Positions 15,542 through 33,217 of a stretch of DNA of 35,004 nt are shown piece by piece; the first letter of the stretch is position 1, and each line of letters opens with the position of its first letter. The position numbers were made by a program, and so were the translations under genes. Under the pieces are notes generated by a model. It was not told where the DNA came from. It saw only the letters and a program-made list of their open reading frames with translations, and did not search any database. This stretch comes from Acidimicrobiia bacterium (GTDB lineage Bacteria > Actinomycetota > Acidimicrobiia > Spongiisociales > Spongiisociaceae): assembly GCA_011523635.1 (NCBI GenBank), contig WTGI01000065.1:1-35004 (forward strand). Direction: 5' to 3'.

Positions 15542-15731
15542 CGTCTTTCTCTTTCCAGCCGATCCTGAGGCGCGAATCCGGGCGCGCGCCTGGCTTTTTC
15601 AGCACGCGCACACTCCGCAAGAACCGGACGGTCAATCCGGGTGCGGATGCTCTGGAGTCTACCCCCTCCGTACGGGCATGTGAGGCGGATCGGCCGTGGT
15701 GTGCCGGTGCCGGCATCACTCGACAAGGGTA

Positions 15732-15760
15732 TTGTCATCACACCCGACTATACATAACGT
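15732..15760 (+). promoter_or_regulatory. Promoter of first duplicated small gene (TTGTCA-N17-TAACGT)
   Basis: The -35 TTGTCA (15732-15737) and -10 TAACGT (15755-15760) are 17 nt apart, in an AT-rich patch unlike the surroundings. The same layout is conserved in the second cassette. The predicted leader before ATG 15870 is about 100 nt. Confidence 0.6.
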
Positions 15761-15869
15761 TACCTAGATCTGATATTCACGATATATGGCCACATATTCA
15801 AACAGCATGGCGCTGTCGGGACATCGCTCCCTGATCGGCGTTACACTGGTGGCAGAAAGGATGCGCAGC

Positions 15870-16103
15870 ATGCCCGCTCTCGACTGGATCGGAATAGTCA
15901 GCCTCTTCGGAGTCGCCGTGAGCATCAACTGGTGGTTGGTGAAGAGCTACTTCGACCGGATGGAAAAGCGCTTCGATGGGCAGGACAAGCGCTTCGAAAG
16001 GCTGGAGGCGATCATGCTGGGTCTCGTGGCCGATGTCAGCCTGATGAAGGGTGCGATGGGGATCTACCCCACCGCCAGGGCGAAGGCCAGCTCCGCGGAG
16101 TAG
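15870..16103 (+). CDS. Small single-pass membrane coiled-coil protein, copy 1
   Basis: The product is 77 aa and of unknown function. Residues about 4-24 (LDWIGIVSLFGVAVSINWWL) form one membrane helix, followed by the heptad-like stretch SYFDRMEKRFDGQDKRFERL and a conserved end LGLVADVSLMKGAMGIYP. ATG 15870 is chosen over 15786 because the SD AGAAAGG lies 9 nt upstream, and because this is the only in-frame ATG shared near the SD with copy 2 (the earlier ATG is ACG there). It resembles phage XhlA-like or other small membrane/coil proteins only in outline. Confidence 0.8.
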   Translation: MPALDWIGIVSLFGVAVSINWWLVKSYFDRMEKRFDGQDKRFERLEAIMLGLVADVSLMKGAMGIYPTARAKASSAE

Positions 16104-16131
16104 TCAATCCCGGCATCACCTAACAAGGGTA

Positions 16132-16160
16132 TTGTCATTACACCGGATTGTACATACTGT
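16132..16160 (+). promoter_or_regulatory. Promoter of second duplicated small gene (TTGTCA-N17-TACTGT)
   Basis: The -35 TTGTCA (16132-16137) and -10 TACTGT (16155-16160) keep the 17-nt spacing of cassette 1. Spacer bases have diverged, but both boxes still fit the consensus, which suggests both promoters are under selection. Confidence 0.6.
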
Positions 16161-16269
16161 TACGGCGATCTGATATTCGCGATATATGGCTACCTATTGG
16201 AACAGTGTGGTGCTGTCGGGGCATCGTCTCCAGTCCGGCGTTACACTGGCGGCAGAAAGGACGCCCAAC

Positions 16270-16482
16270 ATGCCCCCTCTCGATTGGATCGGAATCGTCA
16301 CTCTTTTCGGTGTTGCCGTGAGCATCAACTGGTGGGTGGTAAAGAGCTACTTCGACCGGCAGGACAAGCGCTTCGATCGGCAAGAGGCGATAATGCTCGG
16401 TCTCGTGGCCGATGTCAGCCTGATGAAGGGTGCGATGGGGATCTACCCCGTCGCGAAGGCGAAGGCCGGCTCCGGCGAGTAG
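16270..16482 (+). CDS. Small single-pass membrane coiled-coil protein, copy 2
   Basis: This 70-aa paralogue of the preceding gene has the same membrane helix (LDWIGIVTLFGVAVSINWWV) and conserved end. Its coil reads SYFDRQDKRFDRQEAI, exactly seven residues (one heptad) shorter than copy 1. Most coding substitutions are silent, so the gene is under purifying selection. The SD AGAAAGG is kept. It ends 19 nt before the convergent amidase gene. Confidence 0.8.
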   Translation: MPPLDWIGIVTLFGVAVSINWWVVKSYFDRQDKRFDRQEAIMLGLVADVSLMKGAMGIYPVAKAKAGSGE

Positions 16483-32776: not shown

Positions 32777-33217
32777 GTGAACCCACAGTTCGTTGATTGG
32801 GGAACACTCCTCGCGCTACTGGGACTGCTGGTCAGCGTCGTGGTCTCGGCGGTGGGGCTGGCGGTGGGGCTCCTCTGGCGTGCGATAGCCACGCAGATGA
32901 AGATGCTGAACGAGCGCTTCGACAAGCAGGACGGGCGCTTCGACAAGCAGGACGGGCGCTTCGACAAGCAGGACAACGACATGGCTGAGTTGAGGTCGGA
33001 TGTGGGGGTGTTGAAGACGGACATGGCGGTGGTGAAGAACGATCTCGGCCATGTGAAGGAAGATCTCGGTCATCTGAGGAACGATTTCCGCCGTCTCGAG
33101 TCTCGCTGCGATCTGATGGACACGAACATCGTCCAGGTCATGCGCGACGTCGGCAGGCTGGAGGGCGGGCAGGGGAGTGCCTCCCCGAAGGAGAAGGTCG
33201 GTGCCGGCGGCTCGTAG
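32777..33217 (+). CDS. Single-pass membrane protein with long coiled coil and heptad tandem repeats
   Basis: The 146-aa protein has one membrane helix (about 11-34, LLALLGLLVSVVVSAVGLAV), followed by an almost continuous coiled coil (about 36-130) and a short polar tail. Residues 47-67 are three copies of RFDKQDG/N encoded by perfect 21-bp DNA repeats (32915-32977). The motif KRFD/RFDKQD is shared with the duplicated genes at 15870 and 16270. Start GTG 32777 follows the SD AAGGAGA. It looks like XhlA-type or Bdr-type proteins only in layout. The function is unknown. Confidence 0.8.
   Translation: MNPQFVDWGTLLALLGLLVSVVVSAVGLAVGLLWRAIATQMKMLNERFDKQDGRFDKQDGRFDKQDNDMAELRSDVGVLKTDMAVVKNDLGHVKEDLGHLRNDFRRLESRCDLMDTNIVQVMRDVGRLEGGQGSASPKEKVGAGGS

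Follow-up and report, generated by a model that had tools for sequence, protein, structure and literature searches.

Tandem genus-specific genes for small predicted membrane coil proteins, each behind a conserved leader with a likely hairpin, in an acidimicrobial genus

In the window, by which we mean the whole 35,004-nt stretch of contig WTGI01000065.1 (GenBank assembly GCA_011523635.1, Acidimicrobiia bacterium) that was analyzed, two small genes lie in tandem between a porA-like gene and an amidase gene (Table 1). Each belongs to a unit that begins just 5' of a promoter-like block and ends with the small gene's stop codon, and a few bases separate the gene 1 stop codon from the start of unit 2. 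The two units, each of about 400 bp, are 81 to 89% alike overall and form direct repeats with a period of 400 bp (83% for 15710-15985 versus 16110-16385 and 89% for 15971-16103 versus 16350-16482). These repeats confirm the description in an earlier, sequence-only reading of a tandem cassette with hexamers, a Shine-Dalgarno site, and a start codon in both units, and the tandem small genes with their own control regions are real. Cassette DNA was not found elsewhere in the same genome, and we found no intrinsic terminator 3' of the two genes. Separately, ~320 kb of the genome was sampled as stretches.

Table 1. Features of the tandem array, its flanking genes, and the paralogue
Feature	Position	Strand	Remarks
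Unit 1: promoter-like region, leader, and gene 1	15710-16103	+	Direct repeat; equivalent place in other species
Unit 2: promoter-like region, leader, and gene 2	16110-16482	+	Direct repeat
Block ACAAGGGTA plus TTGTCA (-35-like), unit 1	15723-15737	+	TTGTCA at 15732-15737; identity 0.92-0.93 in 12 copies
Block ACAAGGGTA plus TTGTCA (-35-like), unit 2	16123-16137	+	TTGTCA at 16132-16137
TAACGT (-10-like), unit 1	15755-15760	+	TANNGT in 11/12 copies
TACTGT (-10-like), unit 2	16155-16160	+	
Block B, TCTGATATTCACGATATATGG, unit 1	15769-15789	+	Identity 0.84 in 12 copies; matches paralogue GGATAGCGATATATGG
Block B, unit 2	16169-16189	+	Also common to paralogue leader
Inverted repeat (predicted RNA hairpin), unit 1	15803-15848	+	18 pairs
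Inverted repeat (predicted RNA hairpin), unit 2	16203-16248	+	
TACACTGGTGGCAGAAAGGA: conserved TANNNT plus ribosome-binding site, unit 1	15842-15861	+	
TACACTGGCGGCAGAAAGGA: conserved TANNNT plus ribosome-binding site, unit 2	16242-16261	+	
Ribosome-binding site AGAAAGGA, unit 1	15854-15861	+	
Ribosome-binding site AGAAAGGA, unit 2	16254-16261	+	
Gene 1, 77 aa	15870-16103	+	Orthologues in eight other genomes; dN/dS < 1
Gene 2, 70 aa	16270-16482	+	Layout as gene 1, one heptad shorter
porA-like 2-oxoacid oxidoreductase gene, flank	15541-13637	-	
Amidase gene, other flank	18094-16502	-	
Paralogue, 111 aa	C83:36421-36759 (window's genome)		Orthologues in most genomes carrying the family

The true start codons are most likely the ATGs at 15870 and 16270, each placed behind a ribosome-binding site. 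Upstream ATGs at 15786 and 16186 were considered and rejected: this ATG is lost in several orthologues and one orthologue has an in-frame stop, so the stretch that begins there is noncoding. An upstream reading frame within the leader was likewise rejected: a three-base rhythm is present (P = 0.026), but every frame is closed or lacks a conserved start in at least one copy. Between the two window genes there are 13 synonymous and 10 nonsynonymous differences on 46.7 and 163.3 sites, respectively, giving a dN/dS of 0.183 (binomial P = 0.0004). The proposal that substitutions inside the genes are mostly silent is therefore clear per site but weak by count (13/23). Across the family, dN/dS is ~0.29 (ratio of means, all pairs), and none of 13 sequences contains a frameshift. 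As the sequence-only reading had held, both genes are genuine, protein coding, and under purifying selection. Leader divergence is 0.25, or ~0.74 of dS, so that constraint on the leader is no more than moderate overall, although it is strong in certain blocks.

The predicted proteins share a simple layout. A Trp-containing hydrophobic segment peaks in hydropathy at about residues 6 to 25 (with moderate values of 1.6 to 1.8), flanked by a net charge of -1 before it and +1 to +3 after it; positive charges are followed by a helical rod of coil repeats and a conserved GIYP-AKAK tail (GAMGIYPTARAKASSAE in the gene 1 product). With one hydrophobic segment beside a heptad coil, the proteins are predicted to be single-pass membrane coiled coils, in agreement with their earlier description as small membrane coil proteins. 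AlphaFold2 gave a single helix over residues 3 to 63 at low confidence (mean pLDDT, 65). Family proteins are 70, 77, 84, 102, 106, or 113 aa long, and the differences, which are located in the RFDxQDxR stretch, are all sums of 7 and 11. Seven and 11 residues are two common coiled-coil repeat lengths, and the length steps fit these periods.

Searches for relatives of known function or structure found none in Pfam (at an E value of 1), in NCBIfam, or among solved structures by sequence or fold search at the thresholds used, and matches to PHROGs were weak and coil-like. The best NCBIfam score was 17.3 bits against a cutoff of 36. The small Trp-rich proteins of TIGR04438 resemble the tandem proteins in size and in having Trp in the hydrophobic segment, but the match is weak (E values of 0.004 to 0.1; scores of 12.7 to 17.3), and the tandem proteins are thus not members.

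The family is present in eight other genomes of the genus (G001 to G008), and a ninth (G009) had no match. It lies between the porA-like gene and the amidase gene in at least seven of the nine other species (G001, G002, G003, G004, G005, G007, and G008); the G006 contig begins at the gene, so that the amidase side alone is visible. Two copies occur in the window's genome (G000), G001, G003, and G008, and one copy occurs in the remaining carriers, although the count for G006 may miss an upstream copy. In G009 and three genomes of other genera, porA adjoins the amidase gene with gaps of ~64 to 253 nt, i.e., the site is empty. No family match was found in other genera among 296 genomes drawn from the class; with a looser profile (A4), weak matches to coils appeared in three more of the order's genera. 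A phage or virus origin was rejected, as neither a set of 50,697 phage records nor viral contigs yielded a relative. On these searches, the protein appears so far to be known from its own genus only. Public relatives occur in the MAGs bacterium RHO1_bin_64, Acidimicrobiia SB0664_bin_25, and Acidimicrobiia p16x65bins.30, which we take from their bin names to be sponge derived, and the host actinobacterium is probably a sponge symbiont.

The empty sites, the one species without the cassette, and the variable copy number are what one would expect if a mobile or decaying cassette had recently duplicated and the duplication were functionally idle. We consider this most improbable, given purifying selection between the copies, intact reading frames in all 13 sequences, constant leader spacing, and the occurrence of the cassette at the same locus across the genus.

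The 5' regions were compared in an alignment of 12 copies from eight genomes, and the 149 nt before the ATG contain no indels in any of them. In both window units, TTGTCA is followed by a 17-nt spacer and a TANNGT hexamer. Pairwise identity is 0.92 for TTGTCA and 0.96 for the T, A, G, and T of TANNGT; promoter positions average ~0.94, versus 0.63 in the spacer, a difference reached in 0 of 10,000 permutations. Conserved hexamers at a 16- to 18-nt spacing with a drifting spacer are the pattern expected of a sigma-70-type promoter, and we regard the element as a candidate promoter, with the TTGTCA-N17-TANNNT layout noted earlier holding across the 12 copies. Closer to the gene, TACACTGG and AGAAAGGA are retained in all 12 copies. 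Two leader types, TATTCAAACAG and TATCGGAACAG, occur in the two-copy arrays, and their order in G001 and G003 (L057 and L060) is opposite to that in G000 and G008 (the window and L059). The swapped order suggests exchange or turnover between tandem copies; trees of the copies are poorly resolved. When the leader motifs were sought more widely as signs of a larger regulon, family members alone stood out, with other hits at or near the chance level.

Just 5' of the ribosome-binding site lies a 46-nt inverted repeat (alignment columns 83 to 128), 94% of whose cells are paired over the 12 copies. In most copies, this segment, which was picked from the tested data after the consensus had been seen, has a more stable fold than its dinucleotide shuffles (mean z = -3.2, 12 copies), and its consensus is more stable than column shuffles (z = -3.3, 1/200; 1/100 as the best of 20 scanned windows). 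Covariation is marginal (31/500 shuffles). The leader hairpin is likely real. Structure prediction on the leader, a check proposed in the sequence-only reading, gave a signal for this segment but not for the whole 5' region, which in the window copies is no more stable than expected (z of about +0.45). A larger leader fold with a three-way junction (columns 41 to 149) was set aside, with a z of only about -2 against column shuffles. Assignment to a known RNA family was likewise rejected, as neither the window stretch nor any of three relatives gave a gathering-score match in Rfam 15.

The genome also carries a single-copy paralogue at a different locus. Its protein is ~40% identical to the tandem proteins and resembles them in its N-terminal hydrophobic segment and coil repeats (here RFDRQD, with the tail LVRDVGLLTGA). 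Unlike the tandem units, its leader shows no TTGTCA block, but it shares GATA..GCGATATATGG and TACACTGGCRGCA with them at matching positions. The leader contains a 9-pair stem, the right arm of which, CTACAC, is the TACACTGGCRGCA site; the energy of this stem is no better than that of shuffles. In G008, the paralogue lacks ~88 nt of leader (L036:1360-1420 versus L008:1220-1340), a segment that sits between two ATATGGA copies in other genomes, which places its start ATG right at the GCGATATATGG block. A further membrane-plus-coil gene lies within the window at 32777-33217 (146 aa, with RFDKQDG repeats and RDVGRLEG near the tail), and it has relatives in G001, G005, and G008.

The conserved 5' region contains a second TANNNT, TACACT, at 15842 and 16242, which leads to a possible, if doubtful, alternative. 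If TACACT were the true -10 element, the leader would be short, the ribosome-binding site would be near the mRNA 5' end, and the upstream conserved region and inverted repeat would be regulator-binding DNA. TACACT lies 22 nt before the ATG and is invariant (12/12 copies), TACACTGGCRGCA stands 28 nt before the start in both the paralogue and the tandem units, and TAGAAT is found ~22 nt upstream of the GTG with which the coil gene at 32777 starts. TANNNT is also a genuine -10 signal in this genome, because it is in excess 6 to 9 nt before gene starts (20 observed versus about 2.6 expected; counts from L092-L107 and the window). Yet the motif is not enriched 12 to 25 nt before starts, TACACT has no clear -35 element at 16 to 18 nt, and it is the upstream TTGTCA/TANNGT pair that shows the typical pattern of conserved hexamers and drifting spacer. 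As a separate observation, the excess 6 to 9 nt before predicted starts suggests that this genome has many leaderless genes.

The array also recalls the type I toxin-antitoxin loci of Escherichia coli (ldr/rdl, ibs/sib, and zor/orz), in which tandem membrane toxins have leaders silenced by antisense RNAs. Like ldr/rdl and zor/orz, it consists of tandem units, each with its own promoter (here a candidate), a long leader, and a small membrane protein (here predicted), and tandem duplication of small hydrophobic proteins has served as a search criterion for type I systems (PMC8309996). However, the type I toxins cited in that work are 19 to 35 aa long, whereas the proteins here have 70 to 113 aa, with a selected, variable coil, and are two to three times longer than those of ldr/rdl and zor/orz, with a coil in addition. 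Nor is there a conserved antisense promoter over the leader or the gene. The sole conserved minus-strand TANNNT is TACCCT at the upstream edge of each unit (15726-15731 and 16126-16131; A2 columns 6 to 11), which faces away from the leader of its own gene and lacks a well-conserved -35 element; none was found in the coding tail. For these reasons, we think a type I array very unlikely. As to the direction of TACCCT, transcription from the unit 2 copy would read the end of gene 1 in antisense, and that from the unit 1 copy would head toward porA.

The genes most likely encode a coil protein that is restricted to this lineage and spans the membrane once, behind a 5' region that is conserved and in part structured. 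We favor, with a probability of roughly 0.55, a reading in which the array holds tandem genes of this kind, each transcribed separately with a hairpin leader. Each copy would be transcribed from its own TTGTCA-N17-TANNGT element to give a leader of about 100 nt. The hairpin, ending 5 nt before the ribosome-binding site, might leave that site accessible, shield the 5' end of the mRNA, or serve as a binding site, and its effect would be on mRNA stability or translation. Because of the charge distribution, the protein would be oriented with its N terminus out and its rod and tail in the cytoplasm, where it may serve as an oligomeric scaffold or adaptor anchored in the membrane; the two copies, with rods of different lengths, could mix. 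A more elaborate scheme, in which the hairpin leader would be a cis-regulatory RNA, peculiar to the genus and common to the two paralogue families, that couples the expression of a membrane coil "ruler" to a signal, with rods of different lengths coassembling, seems to us unlikely.

Overall, the sequence-only reading of the array was mostly right, and the array can be explained without the need for a new kind of system. Our analysis adds the conservation of the locus across the genus, the hairpin signal in the leader, the paralogue that shares leader blocks, and the empty sites in neighbors. What emerges is a well-bounded, genus-specific gene for a small predicted membrane protein that either originated at a fixed site or was acquired there and was duplicated together with its control region. 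The gene is maintained by selection, while the length of the coil shifts in steps that fit coil geometry. Its variants in promoter, leader, and coil length may provide a natural set for studying how uncultured symbionts control and use such small proteins.
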